This document shows, one piece after another, positions 1,555-27,903 of a stretch of 32,056 nt of DNA (the stretch's first letter is position 1; each line of letters starts with the position of its first letter). The stretch is from NCBI GenBank assembly GCA_021734745.1, contig JAIPIK010000012.1, positions 1-32,056 on the forward strand, given 5' to 3'. Source of the stretch: Candidatus Altimarinota bacterium. GTDB lineage: Bacteria; Patescibacteriota; Minisyncoccia; Phycocordibacterales; UBA5272. Made by a program: the position numbers and the translations under genes. The notes under the pieces are model-generated. The model was not told where the DNA came from and made no database searches. It worked only from the letters and a program-made list of their open reading frames with translations.

Positions 1555-3030
1555 ATGGCAGTAGAAAAACAAATCCCAGCTGGAGGTGAAGTCGTTCTTC
1601 GTTTTGAAGATGTTACCTTCAATTATAGTGAAAATAAACCGATACTCTTCGAGACTAATTTTGTCGTACGTAAAGGAATAAAATTAACTTTGATGGGTCC
1701 AAACGGTGCTGGTAAGTCTACACTCTTTTCATTAATCATGGGTGAGCGTCATACTGAAGAAGGTAGAGTGATTGTGGGTCAAGGTCTTCGTATCGCTCTT
1801 GCGAAGCAATTTATTTCTCATACACAATGGAGTCTTACTGTTCGAGAATTTTTGGAATTGGCTTTTGATGAAAAAATTTATGATATAGATAAAAGAGCAC
1901 AAAACGTTTTTAAGACAGTTGAATTAAATGTTCCTCTTGATAAAGTTATTAAGGACTTATCAGGTGGTCAAAAAGGTAGACTACTCATTGCTCAAGCACT
2001 CATCCAAGAACCAGATATACTTTTACTTGATGAGCCAACTAACAATTTAGATAAAGCAGGTATACAACTTCTCACTGACTTCATGAAGTCATATGACAAA
2101 ACTGTAATTGTTATTTCCCATGATGCAAATTTCCTGAACGCATTCACGCATGGTGTTGTATATATTAATACTCAGACATATCAACTTGAACAGTATGTTG
2201 GTAACTATTTTAAAGTAGTAGAAGATATAAAAAGACAAGTTGAAAGAGCGGAAAGAGCAAATGCACAACTTGAAAAAGAAATACAAAGTAACAAAGATAA
2301 AGTAAACTTCTTCGCACTTAAAGGAGGTAAGATGCGTAAGCTTGCTTCGAAGTTACGTGATGAAGTTGAGGAGCTAGAAGATAGTAAAGTAGATGTAAGA
2401 AAAGAAGACAGGACAATTAAACCATTTGATATTAAGTGTCAGGAGGATATTGGTAGTGTTATTGTTACTTTCAACTCTGTTGAAGTTCTACATGACGGAA
2501 AACCTGTAAAAAGAAAAGTTAACATAGAGCTTCGTAAAGGAGATAAGCTACATATAACTGGACCAAATGGAATTGGTAAGACTACCCTATTGGAAAAGAT
2601 GGCAAAGCGAGCTGAGAAAGGTGTAGAAATACAAGATGGAATTATTGTTGGATACTATCGTCAAGATTTTTCAACATTAGATTTCGAAAAGTCGTCTTAT
2701 CAAGAACTGGCAAAAGTATTAAAAAGATTGGATGACCAACTTTTAAGAAGAGTAGCTGCGAGTATGTTACTTGGCGCTGAACAGTTAGCTACAAAAATTG
2801 GACTACTCTCGGAAGGTCAAAAAGGATTGCTCATGTTCGCATATTTACGTCTATTACAACCAGGACTACTTATACTTGATGAACCAACTAACCATATCAA
2901 CTTTAGACATATTCCTGTTATTGCTGAAGCTTTAAAAAAATATGAAGGTCCTATGATTATAGTTTCTCACGTTCATGAATTTGTTAAAGATATAGGAGTA
3001 ACTCAAACTCTTGATTTAGGAAAACTGTAG
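1555..3030 (+). CDS. ABC-F family ATPase (ribosome-associated)
   Basis: Two ABC ATPase domains lie in one chain with no membrane segments, as in ABC-F translation factors that act at the ribosomal E site. Domain 1 has Walker A GPNGAGKST (48-56), signature LSGGQ (135-139), Walker B ILLLDE (155-160) and switch His189. A charged helical linker (about 221-290) corresponds to the P-site tRNA-interacting motif. Domain 2 has Walker A GPNGIGKTT (336-344), a variant signature LSEGQK (418-423) and LILDEPTNHIN (439-449), where the usual D-loop Leu-Asp is Ile-Asn. At 491 residues it is short for the family. Which subfamily (EttA-, Uup- or YheS-like) cannot be decided here. The stop is TAG; an inverted-repeat element begins within 10 nt. 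Confidence 0.93.
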   Translation: MAVEKQIPAGGEVVLRFEDVTFNYSENKPILFETNFVVRKGIKLTLMGPNGAGKSTLFSLIMGERHTEEGRVIVGQGLRIALAKQFISHTQWSLTVREFLELAFDEKIYDIDKRAQNVFKTVELNVPLDKVIKDLSGGQKGRLLIAQALIQEPDILLLDEPTNNLDKAGIQLLTDFMKSYDKTVIVISHDANFLNAFTHGVVYINTQTYQLEQYVGNYFKVVEDIKRQVERAERANAQLEKEIQSNKDKVNFFALKGGKMRKLASKLRDEVEELEDSKVDVRKEDRTIKPFDIKCQEDIGSVIVTFNSVEVLHDGKPVKRKVNIELRKGDKLHITGPNGIGKTTLLEKMAKRAEKGVEIQDGIIVGYYRQDFSTLDFEKSSYQELAKVLKRLDDQLLRRVAASMLLGAEQLATKIGLLSEGQKGLLMFAYLRLLQPGLLILDEPTNHINFRHIPVIAEALKKYEGPMIIVSHVHEFVKDIGVTQTLDLGKL

Positions 3031-3036
3031 ATTAAA

Positions 3037-3123
3037 AAGGTCTAATTAACCTAATTTCTAAGGTCTAACTGAAGATAGTGCTCAATTTCATTAGGTTAAT
3101 TAGAAATTAGGCCTTAGGAATTA
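3037..3123. repeat. MITE-like inverted-repeat element
   Basis: The left arm is 3037-3068 and the right arm runs from 3090 to about 3123. TCTAATTAACCTAAT (3041-3055) is the exact reverse complement of 3090-3104, giving a 15-bp hairpin with a 34-nt loop. The left arm matches the left arm of the four-helix-bundle cassette (17108-17077, minus) at 31 of 32 positions. The 19 bases at 3091-3109 match its right arm (16654-16636, minus) exactly. Only about 20 bp separate the arms here, so it looks like the cassette without its gene. It may also act as a 3' stem-loop for the ABC-F mRNA. Confidence 0.75.
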
Positions 3124-3133
3124 CCTTTTGCTA

Positions 3134-3163
3134 TTGACTTTTACGTACTAAATATGGTAGTAT
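3134..3163 (+). promoter_or_regulatory. Promoter of the RRM protein gene
   Basis: A -35 TTGACT (3134-3139) is followed after 18 bp by TAGTAT (3158-3163), overlapping TATAAA. The start would fall near 3170, leaving an unusually long leader of about 75 nt for this window. The leader contains a small stem GCTA/TAGC (3207-3219). Confidence 0.55.
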
Positions 3164-3243
3164 AAAGAGATAAGCAACTCCACGTTTTACACTTGTGTTA
3201 ATGTGCGCTAGGGCTTAGCTTAACAATTAGTTTCTAAACATAA

Positions 3244-3525
3244 ATGAATTCAAAACTTTACATAGGTGGTATACCTTACACTTCTACTAACGATGATCTA
3301 AAAGAACACTTCGGCGCAGCCGGAACTGTTGTTTCAGCTCAAATCATAATCGACAAGATGACAAATCGTTCAAAGGGCTTCGGCTTCGTTGAAATGTCAT
3401 CTGACGAAGAAGCAGAAAAAGCTATCGCCATGTTCCACGATCAGGAATTCCAAGGACGTCGTCTTACAGTAAATGTAGCTCGTCCACTCGCACCTCGCGA
3501 GGATCGTCCACGTCGTACTTTCTAA
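3244..3525 (+). CDS. Single-RRM RNA-binding protein
   Basis: A 93-residue protein made almost entirely of one RNA recognition motif. RNP2 is LYIGGI (residues 5-10) and RNP1 is KGFGFVEM (about 44-51); a short basic tail (RPLAPREDRPRRTF) follows. Bacterial proteins of this type bind RNA and are often cold-induced in cyanobacteria; that role here is inference. The gene has its own promoter, a long leader and a strong terminator, so it is a monocistronic unit. It looks slightly GC-richer than its surroundings, which would suit high expression. The stop codon TAA lies inside a hairpin (3517-3540). Confidence 0.93.
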   Translation: MNSKLYIGGIPYTSTNDDLKEHFGAAGTVVSAQIIIDKMTNRSKGFGFVEMSSDEEAEKAIAMFHDQEFQGRRLTVNVARPLAPREDRPRRTF

Positions 3526-15924: not shown

Positions 15925-16620
15925 CTATTTACTAACCCAACCCTTTTTCTCCAATGCGTTTCTTGCTGCAGATGTTTCAGCCTCCTGTTTACTCTTCCCC
16001 TCACCTTCTGCAATTAAATCTTCGCCAAAATATATACCCACGCGGAATATTTTATCATGGTCAGGCCCCTCTTCACTCAAGACACTGTATGACGGCGTAA
16101 CACCAAATATTTCCTGAGATTTTTCTTGAGTAAAGCTTTTGGCATCCTTATAAAGACCTCTTTTTATAATATCTTCTGTTTTAACTAATAAGGTTTTAGT
16201 GATGAATTCCTCCACACTTTTGTATCCCTGATCAAGATAATATGCTCCTACGAACGCTTCATACGCATCAGCTAATATAGACGACCTTGCACGAGAGACG
16301 TCCTTTGCTTCACCTTTTGAAAGCTTCAACATATCATTAAATGAAAGTGAGTCCGCAAGCTCTCCTAATGTAACAGCATTAACAAGTGCTGAGCGATATG
16401 CTGTTAAATCACCCTCATTGTGATTTGGATATTTTTTATATAAATATTCTGTAACAATAAGTTCTAATACGGCATCCCCCAAAAACTCTAGTCTTTCATT
16501 ATGCTCTAGTCCACTTCTAGGGTTTTCATTTATAAAACTACGATGAATAAAAGCCTGTTCTAAAAGAGATTTATTCTTAAATTCAAGATTATTATGTTTT
16601 TTGAATTCTTCTAAGGTCAT
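15925..16620 (-). CDS. rnc: Ribonuclease III
   Basis: Cuts double-stranded RNA, including rRNA precursors. The catalytic signature NERLEFLGDAVLE lies at 41-53 (Glu42, Glu45, Asp49). Glu69, and Asp118 and Glu121 in ADAYEAFVGA, complete the metal site. A C-terminal double-stranded RNA-binding domain (about 155-228) ends with GKSKQEAETSAARNALEKKG. At 231 residues it has normal length and looks fully active. It lies directly downstream of the inverted-repeat arm of the four-helix-bundle cassette; the arm ends about 20 nt before the ATG, and a minus-strand TATAAT (16673-16668) in the cassette end could drive it. No Shine-Dalgarno is seen. The stop is TAG. Confidence 0.96.
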   Translation of the reverse strand: MTLEEFKKHNNLEFKNKSLLEQAFIHRSFINENPRSGLEHNERLEFLGDAVLELIVTEYLYKKYPNHNEGDLTAYRSALVNAVTLGELADSLSFNDMLKLSKGEAKDVSRARSSILADAYEAFVGAYYLDQGYKSVEEFITKTLLVKTEDIIKRGLYKDAKSFTQEKSQEIFGVTPSYSVLSEEGPDHDKIFRVGIYFGEDLIAEGEGKSKQEAETSAARNALEKKGWVSK

Positions 16621-16699
16621 ATATGATGATTACATTAATTTCTAATTAACCTAAGGTCTAATTTCTAATTATAACTATACTAAAAAACAGACCTCGAGC

Positions 16700-16711
16700 A
16701 ATGTGCACATT
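16700..16711. repeat. 12-bp perfect palindrome at the end of the four-helix-bundle gene
   Basis: AATGTGCACATT is its own reverse complement and overlaps the TAA stop codon (16710-16712). It could be a protein-binding site or a small hairpin; neither is proven. Confidence 0.5.
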
Positions 16712-17072
16712 ATAACTTTTCTTTTGATTTTTTAATAATTGTTGTAAAAATAAGGTTTAATTCATTAGCTTCTTTCCATAATATTCTGGCATCTTTTATG
16801 TATTCGTCACATGCAGTTGATACCATACGAAGATAATGTTTACTTTCTTTTGCTTCTTTGTTAGCAATAGACATTTTATGAATAAAATCCTTATTACTTT
16901 CAGAACAATCAGCTTCACAGTAATTTGCACCAACACTTGTTGCAGCAACCACTAGTTGAGGAATAATACGTTTAGTAATATCATTACTAGGAAGTTTTTT
17001 TACAAAAGATATAACATTTTCACCGTACTTTGCAGTTCTTTCTTCTAAATCATATTTTTTATCTGTGTGCAT
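16710..17072 (-). CDS. Four-helix-bundle protein (23S rRNA IVS / S23 type)
   Basis: The 120-residue protein has the hallmarks of the four-helix-bundle family first found inside 23S rRNA intervening sequences (S23/IVP). Motifs are YDLEERTAKYGENVISFVKK near the N terminus, QLVVAATSVGANYCEA (39-54), and DFIHKMSIANKEAKESKHYL (62-81). The biochemical function of the family is unknown; relatives include the accessory protein Avd of diversity-generating retroelements. No rRNA, reverse transcriptase or variable repeat is seen here. The gene is the only cargo of a unit bounded by inverted repeats and interrupts a cluster of RNA-maturation genes between the nusB fusion and rnc. Its ATG is 3 nt from the repeat, so no normal leader exists. 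The stop is TAA. Confidence 0.9.
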   Translation of the reverse strand: MHTDKKYDLEERTAKYGENVISFVKKLPSNDITKRIIPQLVVAATSVGANYCEADCSESNKDFIHKMSIANKEAKESKHYLRMVSTACDEYIKDARILWKEANELNLIFTTIIKKSKEKL

Positions 17073-17099
17073 TTTATTAGACCTTAGGAATTAGGTTAA

Positions 17100-18017
17100 T
17101 TAGACCTTTGTATTCTTGGCTTTTGCTATCTCAATTGCCTTGTTGATTAAAGGTTTGATATCATCATACATGCGTAGTCCTGGTACATCTTTTGCATCGA
17201 ACCACTCTGCATTATCTAGCCCACCTTTATTCTCCTTGTGCTCAAGCGTAAGTGGTGAATAATCTGCATATGCTAAAAAATAGCTAACATGCTTCACAAC
17301 TTTACCTTTCTCTGGCTTGTTAGCTATGTATTCATTTTCACCTAACTTTTCTTTTATTGTAATCTGTATTCCTATTTCTTCTTTTATTTCGCGTTCTGCT
17401 CCCTGCTGTTCATTTTCACCTTCTTCTATCTTTCCTTTTGGTAGAGTCCAATAACCGAACACATCATGAACAAGGCCAACAAATAATTTATTCTCGTGAT
17501 GACTACACACAACAGCCCCTGCAAGTAATTCTTTTTTAGCAGAATCAAAGTGTTCTTTCTTACTCTTAGTAATCTGAGCTTTTTCTGGCTCACCCATTTC
17601 TTTGTATATAGCACCTAACACTCCGTTAACGAAACGACCAGATGTCTCTCCTCCAAAAGATTTTGCTAATTCAATAGCTTCATCAATTGCAACTTTTGGT
17701 GGAACTTGTGCTCGATCACCAAACAAAAGCTCAGATAAACCAATACGAAGAATATTTCTATCAACCATACCAATCTTATCAAGTGGCCAATCAGGTGCAG
17801 CGCGAGTAATGATATCATCAAGAGTAATACGTCTTGATAAAACATTAGAAAGAATGGACTTTGTAAAAGTCATATCTTTAACACCCTCTCCATATTCATC
17901 ACGATTACGAATAGTTATTATATCTATCTCTTCTTGAGTCGCACTTAATTCACCCTTCATATCCAATTCAAAGAGTGTTTGCAATGCGAGTGTTCGTGCT
18001 ATGTGACGGGTACTCAT
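17100..18017 (-). CDS. nusB: NusB antitermination factor fused to a Nudix hydrolase
   Basis: Residues 1-142 are NusB, the RNA-binding factor of rRNA antitermination (STRHIARTLALQTLFELD near the start; VPPKVAIDEAIELAKSFGGE and RFVNGVLGAIYKEMG near the domain end). After a short charged linker (about 143-162) comes a full Nudix domain (163-305) with an intact Nudix box from Gly195 to Ile217, including Glu201, Arg209, Glu210, Glu213, Glu214 and Gly216. The stretch YWTLPKGKIEEGE resembles Ap4A/MutT-type hydrolases, but the substrate cannot be told. There is no stop between the domains; Met141 could allow internal initiation. It lies 39 bp after rpmF. Its final codons, GTC TAA, lie in the repeat arm of the four-helix-bundle cassette, so the native C terminus may have been changed by insertion. 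Confidence 0.93.
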   Translation of the reverse strand: MSTRHIARTLALQTLFELDMKGELSATQEEIDIITIRNRDEYGEGVKDMTFTKSILSNVLSRRITLDDIITRAAPDWPLDKIGMVDRNILRIGLSELLFGDRAQVPPKVAIDEAIELAKSFGGETSGRFVNGVLGAIYKEMGEPEKAQITKSKKEHFDSAKKELLAGAVVCSHHENKLFVGLVHDVFGYWTLPKGKIEEGENEQQGAEREIKEEIGIQITIKEKLGENEYIANKPEKGKVVKHVSYFLAYADYSPLTLEHKENKGGLDNAEWFDAKDVPGLRMYDDIKPLINKAIEIAKAKNTKV

Positions 18018-18336: not shown

Positions 18337-21300
18337 CTACTCTTCTATATTTGTATTACAAGTATTCTCATTTAGTTTATCTCTAGTAATTTTACCAGCA
18401 ATACCTGTCACAATAAGATTGTGGTCTCTTTGAAAATTCTTTAACGCAATATCTGTAATTTCCCCAAAATAACCAGTTTCTTTTGTATTAAAATAACCAA
18501 GCTGTTTAAGATAATACTGAAGTAGTGACACTTCTCCATTGGTTACAGCATCAGTTCTACCAACATACATTCTATTTCTGAAGTTAACACAAACTCTTTC
18601 TGTTGATACTCCTAACACCATCCCCTGCAAACCATTAAACGGTGAATTTGAATATGCAAAAATGTTACTAGTACCAAAATAACCCAAATCTCCACCGCCG
18701 TCACCTCCTTGTGATGGTGTTGTCGTAGATTGTGGCGCGTCTGGTGTAGTAGTAGCCTCTGTTGTGCTTGCGGACCCACCACCTTCACCACCTCCAGTCT
18801 GTGTAGTTGTGGCTTCTGCAGAATTTGCTTCAATTGTTATAAGGAAACCTGCACCACCACCTCCAGCCTGTGGCCTAAATTGAGCTTTTTTAGAAATAAT
18901 ACTTGGTGTCTGTAAATATGTGAATGAAGATGCATTACCAGAATCAGTCACCCTGAAACAATATGGAACACCAACTACCATTGCAGAAGTTGATCTAATT
19001 ATATACTCGACTTCAGTATACTCACTTGTCCCAACTTGAATAGCTTGTGTAATATTACCAAAAGTTTGAAGATAACCCGCAACAAAACTTTTACCTGAAG
19101 GAATAGAGACCCCACTTGAGTGTGTTGTTATTGTACTGTCATACACATAATACGAAGTACTTGTTCTAACTGGATCAGAAGCAATCGCATCACTTACTTT
19201 TGGAACAGCTACCCATGTAGTACAAGTTGACGACGAATATTCTAATTTATAACTGATATTCGTAATACTCCCACCTTGATTTGAAACAACAAACCTTATT
19301 CTTGCACTATCACCAATGAAGAAACCTCCCGTAAGTTCAGTATTTTCTGGCATGTAATATGTAGCAGACACTTCATTACCATCGTCTTTTCTAATGCGAT
19401 ATGAATCAACTCGTGAGGCAGAAGCAGAAACAGATGGTGTAACTGGGGAACCACCAGGAACCTGCCCAGTTGAATAGTTACCGTATAAATCTTTTGCAAA
19501 TACTTTAAAGTGATACGGTGTATCATTTGTAAGACCTGTAGCAAAACACAAATCTGATGCAGATGGTGTTACCGTTGTATCAACACAAGCAACAGTAGCT
19601 CCACCAATTGTATTACCAACTGTATAAGTTGAACCTTCAGCTGGCACGTTGGTTACTGCGGAAGTTGAACGTAAAACAACAATACTATGTAAATCTGAAT
19701 TACTTGGATTAGTATAACCAATTGTTACTTGGGCATTTCCTGCAGATCCGGTTGATGTTGAAGTATTAGATGGTGACTCATTATCAATTGTTATTGTTGA
19801 AGATAAAGAATCAGTTCCAACTTTTGTACCAGTACTTATTGTTATGTCAGAAATTACAGATGTAACTAAATATGCAACACCTGTTGATGGTCCTGGTAAG
19901 TTTGCCTGTGATTTTGGTGTAATACGAATCCTATAATTTGTAAGAGTTGTATTAGCAGTAATATTTGTAGAAAGTGAAATAGATGTTGTTGCACCTGTTG
20001 GGTTAGTTGTAGAACCATAAACTACACTGCCTGCATCATTAATAATTTCTATAAGACTAGTTGATGAGGCGTAATCTGTTGCAACAACTACAGATGAAAT
20101 GCTACTCGTACTGTAGTCTGTTTTTATTGTAAAAACATCTATATTAACAGCTGATGAACCTGGAGCAATTGTTGAGTTTCCTGCTTCTGTGCCATCATCA
20201 AGAGTAACAGTTATAACTCCTGGTATAGGTGTTACTGGTGAACCAGTTGGTTCAGTTCCTGTTGAATAATTACCATAATTATCTTTTGCAAATAACATTA
20301 GGTAATAAGGTACGCCATTTGTAAGTCCAGTTGCTGCACATGAGTCAGCAGTTGAAACAACTACTACATCATCTACACAAGCCACAGTTGCAGAACCAAT
20401 TGTTTCTCCGCCTGTATATGTTACCCCTTCTACTGGCACATCGGTCACAGCTGAACTAGATCTAAGAACTACCATACTATTTAAATCAGAATCTTCTGGG
20501 GTTGTATAACTTATTGTAATTTGAGTGTTACCTGCAGTTGCTGAAGGAGAGGAAGATGTTGCATGTGCTGCTGGTGATAAATTATCTATTGTTATGGTAG
20601 CAGATGCCGCATCAGTTCCTAATGGAGTAGCTGTTGTTGTGTAACTACTAACGGTTGCAGTAACTGCATATAGCACTCCTGATGTTGGACCAGGTAATTC
20701 TGATTGAGATTTTGGTAATATTTGTATTTTATATTGAGTAGGAGTTGTTGTGGTCACAATCGGAGTTGTAAGAGTAATAACCACAGATGCCCCTGTTGGG
20801 TAAGTGCTAGAACCATAAATCACAGAACCAGCATCATCAGTAATTTGTATTTTCTTTGTTGAAGATGCATTCGCTAAACTAACTGTAACATCAGTAACCG
20901 TCGGATTACCAGTATTGGTAGATAAGACAAAAGCGTCAACTGTTGTTGTTGCTCCCCCTGGAGCAACAGTAGAGTTACTAGGATTGGTACCGTCAGCTAA
21001 AGTAACAGATGGCGTTGATGGTGATGGTGTTGCGGGTGAACCATCAGGTGATATACCTGAAGAATAATTACCGTAGTTATCTCTAGCAAATATTTTAAAA
21101 TAATATGGTGTTCCATTAGTTAATCCAGTTGTTACACATGAATCTGCCGTAGAAGTAGAGACGGTAGTATCAACACAAGCAACTGTAGATGAACCTATAG
21201 TATTTCCTAAAGTATACGTTGTTCCTTCTACTGGAACATCTGTTATGGTAGATGTTGAAGTTAAAATAATAACACTGTGCAAATCAGAATCACCGGGAGT

Positions 21301-24300
21301 TGTATATGTTGTTGTAGCCTGTGTATCCCCTGCTACGACTGTTACAGATGATGAAGTAGAAACCATTCCTCTATTACTTGAACCTGAATTTGAAACGGAA
21401 GCAAACATTCCATCACCGTAAGCAACTGAGTTCCATAGATTATCAGCTGCACTAGTTTTCAAACTCCACACATATCCATCAGGAGAAGTCATAACATGTT
21501 GACTTCCACCATCTGATGCAACTGCAACATAAAGCCCATTGCCGTATGCGACACTTGTCCAAGTATAATCAGCAGCACTTGTGCGAATCGTCCAGTTGAT
21601 TCCATCCGGCGATGTCATAACTCTATTATTTGCTCCGTCTTGTGATACTGCAACGAATTGGTTATCTCCGAAAGTCACTGAATACCATTGATTAGCATTA
21701 GGTGTATTACGAGCAGTCCATGTTAAACCATTAATAGATGTCATTAATTGATTACTACCACTATCTGCAAGTGCTACAAATATTCCATTACCATAAGCAA
21801 CAGTTTTCCAATTACTATCTACTGCACTTGAACTTGTTGCCCATGTTATACCATCAGGCGAAGTCATAACTCTATCCCCTGTACCAGAATCAGACACTGC
21901 GACAAAAAGTCCATTTCCATAAGTAACTGATTTCCAATTATTATCTACTGGGGTGGTACTTGTAGACCAAGCACTACCAGTCGGAGAAGTCATGACACGA
22001 TTATCTGTACCAGTGTAAGAAACAGCAACGAATTTTTCATTACCATATACAACAGATGACCAACTATTATCTGCTGAGCTTGTTCGACTAGTCCATGTAG
22101 TTCCATCAGTAGAAGTCATAACACGATCATTTGTACCTGATTGTGCTACTGCAACAAAGACACCGTTACCGTAAGCAACTGACTGCCAGCTATTATCAAC
22201 AGCACTTGTACTTGTTGACCAGGTAAAGCCACTATTACCAGATGTTGCTGGTGGTTCATTATCTATTGTCAAAGTCGAAGAAGAAACATCGCTACCTAAT
22301 TTATTAACATTAGTACCGGTCCAACTAATTACATTTGTTTTAACGGTATATGTCATACCGAGTGATGCACGAGGTAAATTAGTCTGGGTTTTTGGAGTAA
22401 TCCTTACTCTGTATTCGGTTGGAGTAGTACTTGCGGTGATACTTACTGCAAGTGGTATAGCTACACTAGTACCTGTTGGGTTGGTTGTTGACCCGTAAAC
22501 AACGGTCCCCACATCATTAGTAATTTCAATAAGAGACGTAGAGGAAGCGTTAGAAATATTTAAAGTTATATTTGTAATAACATCTGTACTAGTAGATGTC
22601 TGAAATGTAAATGAGTTTGTAGAAGTTGCAGATGCCCCCGGTGCAACTGTTACACTTGCTGGGTCTGTACCGTTTGCGAGTGTTGTTGTTGTGGCATTAT
22701 CAGAAGGAGTAATTGGTGACCCTACTGGAACGAGTCCAGTAGAGTAGTTACCGTAATTATCTTTTGCAAAGACTTTAAAATGATACGGCACTCCGTTTGT
22801 TAGTCCAGTTGATACACAAGAATCTAATGTAGAAGTTGATACTGTAGTATCAACACAAGCTACTGTTGCAGAACCAATTGTTTCTCCACCTGTATATGTA
22901 GTACCTTCAACTGGTACATCTGTTACAGCTGATGAGGAACGTAATACTACTATACTATTTAAATCTGAGTCTCCTGGTGTTGTGTAACTGAGAGTAATTT
23001 GAGTATTTCCTATCGAAGCTGTTGGAAGAGTTGAAGTTGAGAACATGACCCGATTATCTGTACCGTCTGTAGAAATTGCAACAAATAAACCATTACCGTA
23101 GGTAACTGACTGCCAACTATTATCAACAGCGCTTGTTCTACTTGTCCAAGTGATACCATCTGTTGAAGTCATAACACGATTACCACTACCCGATTCCGCA
23201 ACAGCAACAAAAAGACCATTTCCGTAAGTAACTGACGTCCACAAATTAGCTACAGCAGCAGTACGACTTGTCCAATTTATTCCATCTGGAGATGACATTA
23301 CCCTAGTACTTGTACTACCACTACTTGCAACAGCAACAAAAAGACTGTTACCGTAGGCTACAGAATACCAGGCATTATTTGCTGCACTTGTTCTAGAGGT
23401 CCATGTTATACCATCAGGTGAGGTCATAACACTACCACTTAATGATACCGCAACAAATATACTATTACCGTAAACTACGGAGTACCAAGCCTGGTCCACA
23501 GCACTTGTTCTAGAGGTCCATGTAATACCATCAGGTGATGTCATAACACGATCACCGGTACCAGATTCTGCAACTGCGACAAATAAACCATTACCATATG
23601 TAACTGATCTCCATTGATTATCTGTTGCGCTTGTTCTAGAGGTCCATGTAATACCATCAGGTGATGTCATAACACGATCACCGGTACCAGACCATGCAAC
23701 TGCAACAAAGAGCCCGTTACCGTAAGTAACTCCCCGCCAAACATTATCTGCTGCACTTGTTCTTGTTGACCATGTTATACCATCTGGGGAAGTCATAACA
23801 CGATTATTACTACCGGGACCACTAGAAATTGCTACAAATAGCCCGTTGCCGTAGGCAACAGAAAACCAATAATTATTAGCTGCGCTCGTACTCGTCGCCC
23901 AGACTATCCCCGCATCCCCTGTGGTCGAAGGCATGTCGTTATCAATAGTAACTATCGACGATGAAGCGTCCATACCTAACATTGGGTTGGTCCCTGCCCA
24001 AGTAGACACTATTGCAGTAATTGGATATAACATTCCAATTGATGGTGAAGGTAAATTAGCTTGTGACTTTGGAGTAATGCGAACTTTATACTGAGTGAGT
24101 GATGTATTAGCTGTAAGAGTATTTTGATTTAGTGTAATTATAGTAGTAGTTCCTGTTGGATTAGTAGTAGAACCATAGACAGTTGAACCTGCATCATTTG
24201 TAATTTCAATTAGAGATGTAGAGGAAGCGTTGGAAATATTTAAAGTTATGTTTGTAATAACATCTGTACTAGAGGATGTTTGAAGAGTGAAGGAGTTAAC

Positions 24301-27300
24301 TTCTGTGGCTGAGTCACCTGGGGCGATAGTGATACTTGACGGGTTAGTACCATTTGCAAGAGTGGTAGTTATCGGTATGGTCACAGGTGAACCTGTAGGA
24401 ATAAGACCAGTAGAATAGTTGCCATAATTATCTTTTGCAAATACTTTAAAATGATAAGCAGTTCCTGCGACTATTCCAGTAGCCACACACGAATCTGCTG
24501 TAGAAGTAGCGATGGTGGTATCCACACAAGCAACAGTTGCAGAACCAATAGTTTCTCCTCCTGTATATGTTGTACCTTCTACTGGCACATCTGTTACTGC
24601 TGATATTGAACGAAGAACGAGGACAGTATTAATATCACTAGTCGGTGGTGTGGTGTATGAGAGAGTGACTTGACCTCCTCCTGCGGTGGAGGTGAGGGTG
24701 CTTGAGCTGTTATTGATGAAGACGGAGACGGAGTTTGAGTTATAGTTCGTCACCGCGAGGTCAACATACCCGTCGTTATTGAGGTCGGCGGAGGTGACGG
24801 AGATTGGGAATGAACCCGTCGTGTAGTCTACCTTCGCAGCGTAGGTGCCATTGCCGTTGTTGATGAAGACGGAGACGGAGTTTGGTACAGTGTTCGCCAC
24901 AGCGAGGTCAACGTACCCGTCGTTATTGAGGTCGGCGGAGGTGACTGAAAATGGATTTGTACCCGTCGTGTAGTCTACCTTCGCAGCGTAGGTGCCATTG
25001 CCGTTGTTGATGAAGACGGAGACAGAATTTGAGAGCTCGTTCGCCACAGCGAGGTCAACATATCCGTCGTTATTGAGGTCGTCGGAGGTGACGGAGCGTG
25101 GGTATGTACCGGTCGTATAATCTACCTTCGCAGCGTAGGTACCATTGCCGTTGTTGATGAAGACGGAGACGGAAGCTGAGTTATAGTTCGCCACAGCGAG
25201 GTCAACGTACCCGTCGTTATTGAGGTCGGCGGAGGTGACGGACCATGGATTTGTACCCGTCGTGTAGTCTACCTTCGTCGCATACGTGCCGTTACCGTTG
25301 TTGATGAAGACGGAGACGGAAGCTGAGTTATAGTTCGCCACAGCGAGGTCAACGTACCCGTCGTTATTGAGGTCTGCTGCGGAGATAGAGTCTGGGTCTG
25401 AACCCGTCGTGTAGTCTACCTTGGCGGCGTAGGTACCATCGCTGTTGTTGATGAAGACGGAGACGGAGTTTGAGTTCCCATTCGCCACAGCGAGGTCAAC
25501 GTACCCGTCGTTATTTAGGTCGGCGGAGGTGACAGAGTATGGATTTGTACCCGTCGTGTAGTCTACCTTGGCAGCGTAGGTACCATTGCCGTTGTTGATG
25601 AAGACGGAGACGGAATTTGAGTTAAGATTTACCACCGCGAGGTCAACATATCCGTCGTTGTTGAGGTCGGCGGCAGTGACGGAGTGTGGGGTTGTACCAG
25701 TCATGTAATCTGCCTTGGTGGCGTAGGAAATATTTGAATTTTTAAAAGAAGGGAGTGCTTGATTATCAATAGTGATAGTGGTGGTAGAAATATCGGTACC
25801 AACTTGAGCATTAGTACCCGTCCACGATGCAATTGATGCACGTATAGGATAGAGGCGACCGAGTGTACCTGAAGGAAGGTCTGCTTGTGACTTTGGAGTA
25901 ATGCGTATTTTATACGTAGAAATAGTAGATGTTGCCATTAGAGTATTTTGGCTGAGTGTTATCAGTGTAGTAGTCCCGGTTGGATTAGTGGTTGAACCAT
26001 ATACTGTAGTGCCTGCTGAGTTTGTTACTTCAACGAGAGATGTTGATGACGCGTTGGAAATATTTAATGTTATATCGGTAATAGTGTCTCCACTATTAGA
26101 TGTTTGAAGTGTGAAGGAATCTACAAAAGTTGCGGACGAGCCCGGTGCTATTGTTGTGTCTCCTGGGTTAGTTGTGTTTGCGAGAGTTGTGGTACCTGGA
26201 GTTAGAGTTGGTGTCACTGGTGAACCCGTAGGAACAAGACCTGTAGAATAGTTACCATAGTTATCCTTTGCAAATACTTTAAAGTGATATGATACCCCAT
26301 TAGTTAATCCCGTTGACACACATGAGTCCGCAGTAGAAGGAGATACTGTAGTATCTACACAAGCAACAGTTGTTACACCAATACTTTCTCCACCTGTGTA
26401 AGTTGTCCCTTCTGCTAGTACATTTGTTATCGCTGATGTAGAACGAAGTATTACTATACTATTTAAATCTGCATCTCCTGGAGTTGTATAAGTTGTTGTA
26501 GCTGATCCATCTCCTGCAGTTACAGTGCTGGATGTAACATTAGCCGTCGAAAGGTTATCTATTGTAACAGTAGCAGAAGTTGCATCAGCCCCTGCTTTAG
26601 AATTCGTTCCAGTCCACGTAGATACAGTTGACGTAACTGCATATGATGAACCTATAGGTACTGGTAGGTTAGCTTGTGATTTTGGGGTAATACGAACTTT
26701 ATATGTTGTGGCAGCGACAGTTGCAGTAAGTGTGTTTTGACTAAGTGTTATAACTGTAGTTGCTCCTGTTGGATTAGCATTAGAGCCATAAACTATAGTG
26801 CCTGCTGAGTTTGTTATTTCTATTAATGATGTTGAAGAAGCATTAGAGATGTTTAGTGTGATTGCTGTAATAACATCAGTACTAGAAGATGTTTGAAGAG
26901 TGAATGAATTAACTTCAGTTGCTGTACCTCCTGGAGCTATGGTCACACTTGAAGGATTTGTACCATCTGCAAGAGTAGTGACATTTGGTATGGTTACTGG
27001 TGATCCAGTAGGAACAAGTCCTGTGGAGTAGTTACCATTATTATCTTTTGCAAAGACTTTAAAATGATATGTCACTCCATTAGTTAGTCCTGTTGTTAAA
27101 CATGAATCTGAAGCAGAAGGAGTTACTACAGTGTCTACACAAGCAACGGTTGCAGAACCAATAGTATTACCAACTGTATAAGTTGTACCTTCTACTGGTA
27201 TATCTGTTACAGCTGACGAGGAACGTAGAATTACTACACTGTTTAAATCTGAATCTGCTGGATTAGTGTAAGTTGTGGTTGCTTGTCCTATTCCTGCGGT

Positions 27301-27903
27301 TGCAGTACTAGAAGTAACATTTGCAGTTGAAAGATTGTCAATTGTAATAGTTGCAGAACTAGTATCAGTTCCAGTATTACCATAAGTTCCAGTTGTTCCT
27401 GTAACTGTTGCAGTCACTGCATATGATGACCCTACCGGTGCTGGCAGGTTGGCTTGTGATTTTGGTGTAATTCTAATTCTATACTCAGTAAGAGTTGTAC
27501 TAACTGATATTGAAGTTCCTAAAGTAACAACAACTGAAGTCCCTGTAGGATTAGCGGTTGACCCATAAACAGTTGCACCAGTAGTATCAGTTATTTCTAG
27601 CAGGCTTGTAGACGAAGCGTTGGCAATAGACACCGTAACCGCTGTAACTGTATCCGTAGGCCCACCACCAGAGCCAACAACTTGCAAAGAAAATCCATCA
27701 ACATTAGTTGCAGAACTACCTGGTGCAACAGTGGAATTACTTGGGTTAGTTCCATCACCAATATCTACCGTTCTAGCAGCATAGGCAGTTGATGACGAAT
27801 TAAAACTTAAAAGTATAATAAAAACAAAAAATACTCTAAAGTAAGTGCGGAAAGACATTTTATTATGAAAACGTTTTTCAAGAGAATCGAGAATTAAATT
27901 CAT
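18337..27903 (-). CDS. Giant modular surface protein with three predicted beta-propellers and a peptidoglycan-binding domain
   Basis: A 3188-residue secreted protein. A signal peptide (hydrophobic 22-34, probable cleavage after TAYA, residue 42) precedes seven copies of a unit of about 262 residues. Each unit has domain A (starting near LADGTNPS, including ISNASSTSLIEI and RITPKSQANLP, ending TIDN) and domain F, Fn3-like (ATTTYTTPGDSDLNSIV to KDNYGNYSTG) with a conserved Cys pair. Units begin near residues 46, 309, 571, 1178, 1738, 2300 and 2563. In units 3, 4 and 5 a sevenfold repeat sits between A and F: FG-GAP type (about 726-1066), then two Asp-box types (about 1335-1624 and 1895-2186). 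After about 2830 come a unique domain, a Gly-rich linker and a peptidoglycan-binding domain (about 3122-3180, SLLQYYLKQLGYF, GEITDIALKNFQRDH). Likely role: wall-anchored adhesin or host-contact protein (inference). Met16 is an alternative start. The stop is TAG. Confidence 0.93.
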   Translation of the reverse strand: MNLILDSLEKRFHNKMSFRTYFRVFFVFIILLSFNSSSTAYAARTVDIGDGTNPSNSTVAPGSSATNVDGFSLQVVGSGGGPTDTVTAVTVSIANASSTSLLEITDTTGATVYGSTANPTGTSVVVTLGTSISVSTTLTEYRIRITPKSQANLPAPVGSSYAVTATVTGTTGTYGNTGTDTSSATITIDNLSTANVTSSTATAGIGQATTTYTNPADSDLNSVVILRSSSAVTDIPVEGTTYTVGNTIGSATVACVDTVVTPSASDSCLTTGLTNGVTYHFKVFAKDNNGNYSTGLVPTGSPVTIPNVTTLADGTNPSSVTIAPGGTATEVNSFTLQTSSSTDVITAITLNISNASSTSLIEITNSAGTIVYGSNANPTGATTVITLSQNTLTATVAATTYKVRITPKSQANLPVPIGSSYAVTSTVSTWTGTNSKAGADATSATVTIDNLSTANVTSSTVTAGDGSATTTYTTPGDADLNSIVILRSTSAITNVLAEGTTYTGGESIGVTTVACVDTTVSPSTADSCVSTGLTNGVSYHFKVFAKDNYGNYSTGLVPTGSPVTPTLTPGTTTLANTTNPGDTTIAPGSSATFVDSFTLQTSNSGDTITDITLNISNASSTSLVEVTNSAGTTVYGSTTNPTGTTTLITLSQNTLMATSTISTYKIRITPKSQADLPSGTLGRLYPIRASIASWTGTNAQVGTDISTTTITIDNQALPSFKNSNISYATKADYMTGTTPHSVTAADLNNDGYVDLAVVNLNSNSVSVFINNGNGTYAAKVDYTTGTNPYSVTSADLNNDGYVDLAVANGNSNSVSVFINNSDGTYAAKVDYTTGSDPDSISAADLNNDGYVDLAVANYNSASVSVFINNGNGTYATKVDYTTGTNPWSVTSADLNNDGYVDLAVANYNSASVSVFINNGNGTYAAKVDYTTGTYPRSVTSDDLNNDGYVDLAVANELSNSVSVFINNGNGTYAAKVDYTTGTNPFSVTSADLNNDGYVDLAVANTVPNSVSVFINNGNGTYAAKVDYTTGSFPISVTSADLNNDGYVDLAVTNYNSNSVSVFINNSSSTLTSTAGGGQVTLSYTTPPTSDINTVLVLRSISAVTDVPVEGTTYTGGETIGSATVACVDTTIATSTADSCVATGIVAGTAYHFKVFAKDNYGNYSTGLIPTGSPVTIPITTTLANGTNPSSITIAPGDSATEVNSFTLQTSSSTDVITNITLNISNASSTSLIEITNDAGSTVYGSTTNPTGTTTIITLNQNTLTANTSLTQYKVRITPKSQANLPSPSIGMLYPITAIVSTWAGTNPMLGMDASSSIVTIDNDMPSTTGDAGIVWATSTSAANNYWFSVAYGNGLFVAISSGPGSNNRVMTSPDGITWSTRTSAADNVWRGVTYGNGLFVAVAWSGTGDRVMTSPDGITWTSRTSATDNQWRSVTYGNGLFVAVAESGTGDRVMTSPDGITWTSRTSAVDQAWYSVVYGNSIFVAVSLSGSVMTSPDGITWTSRTSAANNAWYSVAYGNSLFVAVASSGSTSTRVMSSPDGINWTSRTAAVANLWTSVTYGNGLFVAVAESGSGNRVMTSTDGITWTSRTSAVDNSWQSVTYGNGLFVAISTDGTDNRVMFSTSTLPTASIGNTQITLSYTTPGDSDLNSIVVLRSSSAVTDVPVEGTTYTGGETIGSATVACVDTTVSTSTLDSCVSTGLTNGVPYHFKVFAKDNYGNYSTGLVPVGSPITPSDNATTTTLANGTDPASVTVAPGASATSTNSFTFQTSTSTDVITNITLNISNASSTSLIEITNDVGTVVYGSTTNPTGTSVAIPLAVSITASTTPTEYRVRITPKTQTNLPRASLGMTYTVKTNVISWTGTNVNKLGSDVSSSTLTIDNEPPATSGNSGFTWSTSTSAVDNSWQSVAYGNGVFVAVAQSGTNDRVMTSTDGTTWTSRTSSADNSWSSVVYGNEKFVAVSYTGTDNRVMTSPTGSAWSTSTTPVDNNWKSVTYGNGLFVAVSDSGTGDRVMTSPDGITWATSSSAVDSNWKTVAYGNGIFVALADSGSNQLMTSINGLTWTARNTPNANQWYSVTFGDNQFVAVSQDGANNRVMTSPDGINWTIRTSAADYTWTSVAYGNGLYVAVASDGGSQHVMTSPDGYVWSLKTSAADNLWNSVAYGDGMFASVSNSGSSNRGMVSTSSSVTVVAGDTQATTTYTTPGDSDLHSVIILTSTSTITDVPVEGTTYTLGNTIGSSTVACVDTTVSTSTADSCVTTGLTNGTPYYFKIFARDNYGNYSSGISPDGSPATPSPSTPSVTLADGTNPSNSTVAPGGATTTVDAFVLSTNTGNPTVTDVTVSLANASSTKKIQITDDAGSVIYGSSTYPTGASVVITLTTPIVTTTTPTQYKIQILPKSQSELPGPTSGVLYAVTATVSSYTTTATPLGTDAASATITIDNLSPAAHATSSSPSATAGNTQITISYTTPEDSDLNSMVVLRSSSAVTDVPVEGVTYTGGETIGSATVACVDDVVVVSTADSCAATGLTNGVPYYLMLFAKDNYGNYSTGTEPTGSPVTPIPGVITVTLDDGTEAGNSTIAPGSSAVNIDVFTIKTDYSTSSISSVVVATDYASSTSLIEIINDAGSVVYGSTTNPTGATTSISLSTNITANTTLTNYRIRITPKSQANLPGPSTGVAYLVTSVISDITISTGTKVGTDSLSSTITIDNESPSNTSTSTGSAGNAQVTIGYTNPSNSDLHSIVVLRSTSAVTNVPAEGSTYTVGNTIGGATVACVDTTVTPSASDLCFATGLTNDTPYHFKVFAKDLYGNYSTGQVPGGSPVTPSVSASASRVDSYRIRKDDGNEVSATYYMPENTELTGGFFIGDSARIRFVVSNQGGSITNISYKLEYSSSTCTTWVAVPKVSDAIASDPVRTSTSYYVYDSTITTHSSGVSIPSGKSFVAGYLQTFGNITQAIQVGTSEYTEVEYIIRSTSAMVVGVPYCFRVTDSGNASSFTYLQTPSIISKKAQFRPQAGGGGAGFLITIEANSAEATTTQTGGGEGGGSASTTEATTTPDAPQSTTTPSQGGDGGGDLGYFGTSNIFAYSNSPFNGLQGMVLGVSTERVCVNFRNRMYVGRTDAVTNGEVSLLQYYLKQLGYFNTKETGYFGEITDIALKNFQRDHNLIVTGIAGKITRDKLNENTCNTNIEE
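21348..22221 (-). repeat. Seven Asp-box repeats, predicted propeller 3 (unit 5)
   Basis: Seven repeats of about 41 residues, each with W-x-S-V-x-Y-G-N, then FVAV, then an Asp-box-like MTSPDGITW. The W-x-S/T-V positions read SWQSV, SWSSV, NWKSV, NWKTV, QWYSV, TWTSV and LWNSV. Copies have diverged more than in the unit-4 block. Seven repeats suit one closed seven-bladed propeller (inference). Confidence 0.75.
23034..23901 (-). repeat. Seven Asp-box repeats, predicted propeller 2 (unit 4)
   Basis: Seven repeats of about 41 residues with the same pattern (YGNGLFVAVAESGTGDRV, then MTSPDGITWTSRTSA). The W positions read YWFSV, VWRGV, QWRSV, AWYSV, AWYSV, LWTSV and SWQSV. Two neighbouring blades share a 62-bp perfect DNA repeat. 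Predicted to fold as a seven-bladed propeller. Confidence 0.75.
23504..23691 (-). repeat. 62-bp perfect direct repeat in propeller 2
   Basis: Bases 23504-23565 are identical to 23630-23691. The offset of 126 bp is exactly one blade (42 codons), showing a recent duplication or gene conversion between adjacent blades. Confidence 0.85.
24706..25728 (-). repeat. Seven FG-GAP/VCBS repeats, predicted propeller 1 (unit 3), GC-rich
   Basis: Seven near-identical repeats of about 48-49 residues, each with a calcium-loop motif DLNNDGYVDLAV (Asp-x-Asn-x-Asp-Gly) followed by SVSVFINN. The count suits one integrin-alpha-like seven-bladed propeller. By eye this stretch is much richer in G and C than the DNA on either side, and the copies are nearly identical at DNA level, which points to recent expansion or acquisition. 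Confidence 0.85.

Follow-up and report, generated by a model that had tools for sequence, protein, structure and literature searches.

The window, by which we mean the whole stretch of 32,056 nucleotides of Candidatus Altimarinota DNA that was analysed (genome G000 of our set), carries related pairs of inverted arms at two places: once without a gene, downstream of an ABC-F gene, and once around a gene of the 23S_rRNA_IVP family (IVP), in what we call the parent cassette. The features are as follows.

1555–3030, plus strand: ABC-F ATPase gene immediately before the gene-less copy (flanking host gene; domain match)
3037–3068, plus strand: left arm of the gene-less (MITE-like) copy (31/32 identity with the left arm of the cassette)
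3069–3090, plus strand: interior of the gene-less copy, 22 bp, no gene (read from the sequence)
3091–3118, plus strand: right arm of the same copy, in the opposite orientation to its left arm (19/19 match of 3091–3109 to 16636–16654)
3244–3525, plus strand: gene of an RRM RNA-binding protein that follows the gene-less copy (flanking host gene; domain match)
15925–16620, minus strand: rnc (RNase III), host gene downstream of the cassette (domain match)
16636–16671, minus strand: right arm of the parent cassette (arm matches)
16710–17072, minus strand: IVP gene, encoding a four-helix-bundle protein of 120 aa (23S_rRNA_IVP, PF05635; TIGR02436; Pfam and NCBIfam matches)
17077–17108, minus strand: left arm of the parent cassette, which provides the stop codon of the NusB-NUDIX gene (arm matches)
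17100–18017, minus strand: NusB-NUDIX fusion gene, host gene upstream of the cassette (domain match)

Some other features of the window may be recorded here. The NusB and NUDIX domains lie within one open reading frame (17100–18017), and a minus-strand frame of 3188 aa at 18337–27903, with internal repeats of 126–147 bp and 780–1830 bp, probably encodes a surface protein. The leader before the RRM gene (3130–3243) is conserved in the genus (AAGCAACTCCACGTTT...GTGCGCTAGGGCTTA) and has no Rfam match; it is possibly a regulatory 5' UTR.

The likeness of the arms that an earlier note on this DNA had reported was reproduced in full: 31 of 32 bases of 3037–3068 are identical to the reverse complement of 17077–17108, the 19-mer at 3091–3109 agrees with 16636–16654 at every base in the same relative inversion, this being its single further exact occurrence in the window and on the opposite strand, and the spacer, given there as about 20 bp, measures 22 bp. 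The right arm of the gene-less copy has in addition a 22-nt complementary match (95%) to 16650–16671 and reaches to about 3118, the exact ends of the copy (3037–3118) being uncertain by a few bases. Its left arm reads GGTCTAA-TTAACCTAA-TTTCTAA-GGTCTAA, and because the words GGTCTAA, TTTCTAA and TTAACCTAA are permuted in this copy and the right arm extends to about 3118, the structure is not a simple perfect palindrome. The RNA fold of the gene-less element nevertheless beats 198 of 200 shuffles on the plus strand and all 200 on the minus strand; the Rfam covariance-model search of the window gave no match at the gathering score.

In the 960-kb genome to which the window belongs, the arm pair is present at only these two places. 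The exact core CTAATTAACCTAA is confined to the four arm positions of the gene-less copy and the cassette, and whole-genome BLAST with the arms of the gene-less copy gave E-values of 5.5e-10 and 5e-4. The earlier note had named a single further occurrence as grounds for giving up its reading, and formally this is what the 19-mer and the arm yield in their own genome, but the relatives of the same genus overturn that verdict. The genome G008 has arms at about 18 places, namely the gene-bearing cassette and about 17 gene-less places with short interiors, the arm sequence being common to unrelated places. Arms also occur at several places in G005 and G002 and, in diverged form, in other families of the order.

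Both window sites are filled in some relatives and empty in others. The cassette between rnc and nusB is present in G000, G002 and G008 and absent in eight relatives (G001, G006, G007, G009, G010, G012, G013 and G015), the gap between the two genes being 8–55 nt without the cassette versus about 440–550 nt with it. The site between the ABC-F and RRM genes is filled in G000 and, by a version of its own, in G008; it is empty in G001, G006, G009, G013 and G015, and no element follows the ABC-F gene in G002 or G005. Such a pattern is expected of a mobile element and answers the objection, raised beforehand, that the arms might be a conserved 3' structure of ABC-F genes. Since G008 bears its own version there, the spot downstream of ABC-F may be favoured. 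The relation of a MITE to its parent, as proposed earlier, is thus supported: the window copy lacks a gene, has its inverted ends in common with a gene-bearing element, and belongs to a family with dispersed gene-less copies in G008 and an empty ABC-F site in relatives. The target duplications of these gene-less copies of CPR bacteria could not be defined, because the flanks in the relatives are too diverged. At the same spot in G010 (L323) the gap between the ABC-F and RRM genes holds an unrelated inverted pair of 8-mers (CAGTANNN words), and the stretch after ABC-F may be an insertion hotspot.

The parent element, about 0.45 kb long, is built from a single IVP gene and, on either side of it, an array of 7-bp words, the two arrays being inverted relative to each other; the gene product matches Pfam PF05635 (E 1.3e-11) and NCBIfam TIGR02436 (E 6.7e-18). 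The earlier description of an element without transposase holds in so far as no known transposase lies in it, but the parent carries the IVP gene, which is the likely mobiliser. An S23/IVP reading frame with complementary termini is what characterises the intervening sequences (IVS) of 23S rRNA; the window cassette has both and sits between rnc and nusB-nudix, not in an rRNA gene.

The architecture appears to be general and occurs in many bacterial phyla. In the genus, inverted arms exceed every shuffle at 22 of 30 IVP loci, a set that includes two halves of one broken gene and one Avd-like gene. Arrays of heptamers (sometimes octamers) flank every one of the 13 IVP genes on plasmids of Cyanobacteria, Bacteroidota, Azospirillum and Gemmatirosa, and in 12 cases they form inverted pairs; at the Pseudanabaena locus L125 heptamers stand on both flanks but in direct orientation. 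The same arrangement was found at 80 further loci from many phyla, which were not chosen for their arms because they were collected with a single protein query, the solved IVP XCC0516. A tandem period of 7, 8, 9 or 14 with a score of at least 10 is present in 119 of 183 IVP flanks versus 14 of 352 control windows (periods 7, 14, 8 and 9 in 69, 31, 15 and 4 flanks, respectively), and in the comparison with nearby windows a tandem-period score of at least 10 was reached by 122 of 183 flanks versus 24 of 352. Inverted arms scoring at least 13 mark 47 of 92 IVP loci versus none of 352 controls. Arms are not detectable at every locus, the period signal being absent in 15 of 93. At L157, L194, L196, L207 and L215 the words of the arms measure 8 or 9 bp rather than 7. 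In the Azospirillum lipoferum plasmid, an IVP gene with heptamer arms (L133) lies within an apparent 23S rRNA gene, which ties the rRNA IVS to the same heptamer-arm architecture.

The relation between the IVP gene and the words dispersed over a genome was followed in Xanthomonas and its relatives, where the prediction that the IVP gene would carry GGGAATC heptamers was set down before the sequence was fetched. The prediction held: the gene lies between the stop codon of accB and the start codon of accC within inverted arms of the GGGAATC type. Its Luteimonas relative likewise has GGGAATC-type arms, and the Dokdonella relative has GGGATTC arms. Doublets of GGGAATC number 188 in X. arboricola, 86 in X. 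dyei, 140 in Luteimonas and 19 in Dokdonella, those of GGGATTC 15, 9, 0 and 170, respectively, and the reversed-pattern control gave none in these genomes. The word on the arms of an IVP gene, as judged from these sequences, is the word of the dispersed arrays in its genome. Many of the sites are inverted pairs 40–200 bp apart, with inner bases resembling those of the gene-bearing element. Each of the four genomes has one or two IVP genes, versus about 90–190 array sites with the same word, which lends indirect support to the proposed recognition of the arms in trans. At one locus compared across 28 Xanthomonas genomes, the words of the two arms covary in 27, a count without phylogenetic correction. 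The search with the Luteimonas locus L266 led to the orthologous locus in Xanthomonas genomes. One gene-less Xanthomonas locus has kept its element throughout almost all of the genus, so that transposition may be slow, and its arm word departs from the main word of the genome in some species. IVP elements probably explain bacterial heptamer repeats of formerly unknown origin.

Junctions can be read most directly on cyanobacterial plasmids. Those of Trichormus and Scytonema have the arrangement AAAAAGTAAT, arm, IVP gene, arm, GTAATTAAC, and those of Nostoc linckia and Tolypothrix have the empty site AAAAAGTAATTAAC; the insert comprises arm, gene and arm only, with a target duplication of 5 bp. 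This gene-bearing plasmid element is the only filled/empty pair with an unambiguous target duplication. A second pair (L136/L352) shows a duplication of 3 bp (4 of 5 with one mismatch allowed), and the remaining cyanobacterial pairs are not clean, owing to ambiguity or small deletions. At the TraM site of three Nostoc plasmids one has a gene-bearing element, one a gene-less element and one none, and IVP genes between cas genes look inserted, with an empty counterpart in Picosynechococcus 7002. The clean pair shows the arm-gene-arm unit inserted, as a whole, into an empty site.

Five polar residues of the IVP (window numbering), Q39, S46, N50 and E53 in helix 2 and E76 in helix 3, are invariant in 117 of 117 IVPs, and Avd-like relatives have lost most of them, as far as the alignment reaches these positions. 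The contrast points to a specific, perhaps catalytic, function of arm-flanked IVPs. The AlphaFold model of the window IVP (pLDDT 95.7) has its best solved matches in 2rld and 2gsc and matches Avd (4dwl) more weakly, with a TM of 0.70. Three weak PF05635 relatives of the Avd type adjoin reverse transcriptases in the analysed genomes (L007 at about 49949–51101 of contig C21 in G000, L110 on C17 and L111 on C22 in G005) and are likely the Avd proteins of diversity-generating retroelements. The solved relatives of IVP/S23 are pentamers, and we know of no enzymatic activity in the family.

Taken together, these data make it fairly likely that the feature downstream of the ABC-F gene derives, in the manner of a MITE, from an "IVP element", is non-autonomous and is moved by means of IVP and the heptamer arms. 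Such elements make up a minimal class of mobile element that has apparently gone unrecognised. The sequence comparisons above show the mobility, the architecture and the matching of words; that IVP is the catalyst and acts in trans is what we infer in addition. The IVP would recognise its word in folded or cruciform arms and, through the Q-S-N-E...E residues, would perform or direct both the cutting and the insertion, whether in cis or in trans. Insertions would be tolerated for the most part between genes, often those of one operon, and the intervening sequences long known from 23S rRNA would be copies that landed in rRNA. The boldest form of this proposal, to which we give even chances, makes IVP a transposase of a new kind. 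This small four-helix bundle, its active site formed by Q-S-N-E...E, would recognise inverted arrays of short heptamer words and mobilise both the 0.45-kb element that encodes it and numerous gene-less copies; the 23S rRNA intervening sequences, the bacterial heptamer repeats and the "cas-associated" IVP genes would then all go back to it.

It is also conceivable, though unlikely, that an unrelated transposase, for example of the Y1/RAYT or DDE type, moves the arms and that IVP is a passenger or a regulator. REP/RAYT palindromes without a gene are moved in trans, and no catalytic activity of IVP is known, but no gene other than IVP was seen inside the arm pairs of the loci sampled, its arm word tracks the genome-wide word, and its polar residues are strictly invariant. 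Mobility at the level of RNA, in which an arm-closed transcript would be excised (e.g., by RNase III) and turned back into DNA by a reverse transcriptase of the cell, which IVP would assist in the manner of Avd, seems to us decidedly improbable. The fold that IVP has in common with Avd, the partner of the reverse transcriptase of diversity-generating retroelements, the long RNA hairpin closed by the arms, and the excision of classical IVS RNA by RNase III (PMC4990558) would suit it. The cellular route is disfavoured, however, because the RVT_1 search found no such gene in the arm-rich genomes of G008, X. arboricola (188 sites) and Dokdonella (170 sites), and the Avd relatives associated with reverse transcriptases have lost most of the residues invariant in arm-flanked IVPs. 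The reverse transcriptase search of G008 and G002 likewise found none, and the only one found in G000 lies on contig C21, away from the cassette on C7, so that the adjacency typical of Avd is lacking. That the arms are immobile, being slippage-born heptamer microsatellites or conserved regulatory or terminator hairpins, is hardly credible, since, for all that heptamer number differs among Coxiella strains (PMC4990558) and the arms are intergenic, beside stop and start codons, they are inverted pairs around one gene family, the dispersed G008 copies share arm sequence at unrelated places, and the empty sites and target duplication contradict it unless the empty sites are precise deletions. A reading of the arms as integron attC sites was dropped, the attC core consensus not being fitted (by eye) and no tie to an integrase being seen.

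If movement by IVP is correct, it would give one answer to three puzzles: the function of S23/IVP, the origin of intergenic heptamer repeats such as those of Xanthomonas, and the presence of IVP genes inside cas and other operons. To our knowledge, no known transposase family has the four-helix-bundle fold of IVP, so the mobiliser would be a new type of enzyme, and the IVP element would rank among the smallest self-contained elements known.

Parts of this picture are present in the literature, although our search of open-access papers found no report that connects IVP genes to gene-less copies or, beyond rRNA, to arrays of heptamers. IVS elements with an S23 reading frame and complementary ends have long been suspected to be mobile in Coxiella and Leptospira, the Coxiella IVS having two or three GACAGAT heptamers ahead of the reading frame (PMC4990558), and rRNA insertions with 23S_rRNA_IVP have been described in CPR bacteria (PMC11270868). 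The protein family and the complementary termini are alike in the IVS of Coxiella and Leptospira and in IVP elements, whereas the window elements and most loci considered here lie outside rRNA genes, and dispersed gene-less copies, a target duplication and apparently general heptamer arms go beyond the 23S rRNA IVS. Neither for the heptameric repeats of Xanthomonas and Nostoc (PMC4692102) nor for the TAACTGA repeats of Beggiatoaceae, Cyanobacteria and Bacteroidetes (PMC4679880) was a link to a gene or mobile element reported; PMC4692102 states that its repeats are as a rule not associated with IS or other transposable elements and describes the GGGAATC repeat of Xanthomonas without explanation. 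Like IVP arms, both are intergenic tandem words of 7 bp, in Xanthomonas often in inverted pairs; the difference is that one of these words, GGGAATC, is here linked to the IVP gene, both through where it lies and through the agreement of words. PF05635 has been interpreted as Avd-like (PMC10053308); Avd (PDB 4dwl, 8ube) has the fold of IVP but, unlike IVP, stands next to a reverse transcriptase and is missing most of the residues that never vary in IVP. IVP genes within cas loci, with the motif GxxRxxxSxxxNxxE, were taken to have a possible CRISPR-associated function (PMC3936711); they belong to the same family as the genes of the IVP elements and appear here as insertions between cas genes. 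With REP/RAYT systems and MITEs, finally, IVP elements have in common one gene copy and many gene-less palindromic copies, but the gene between the window arms belongs to PF05635 and encodes a four-helix bundle instead of a Y1 (IS200/IS605-like) or DDE transposase, and the ends are arrays of heptamers.
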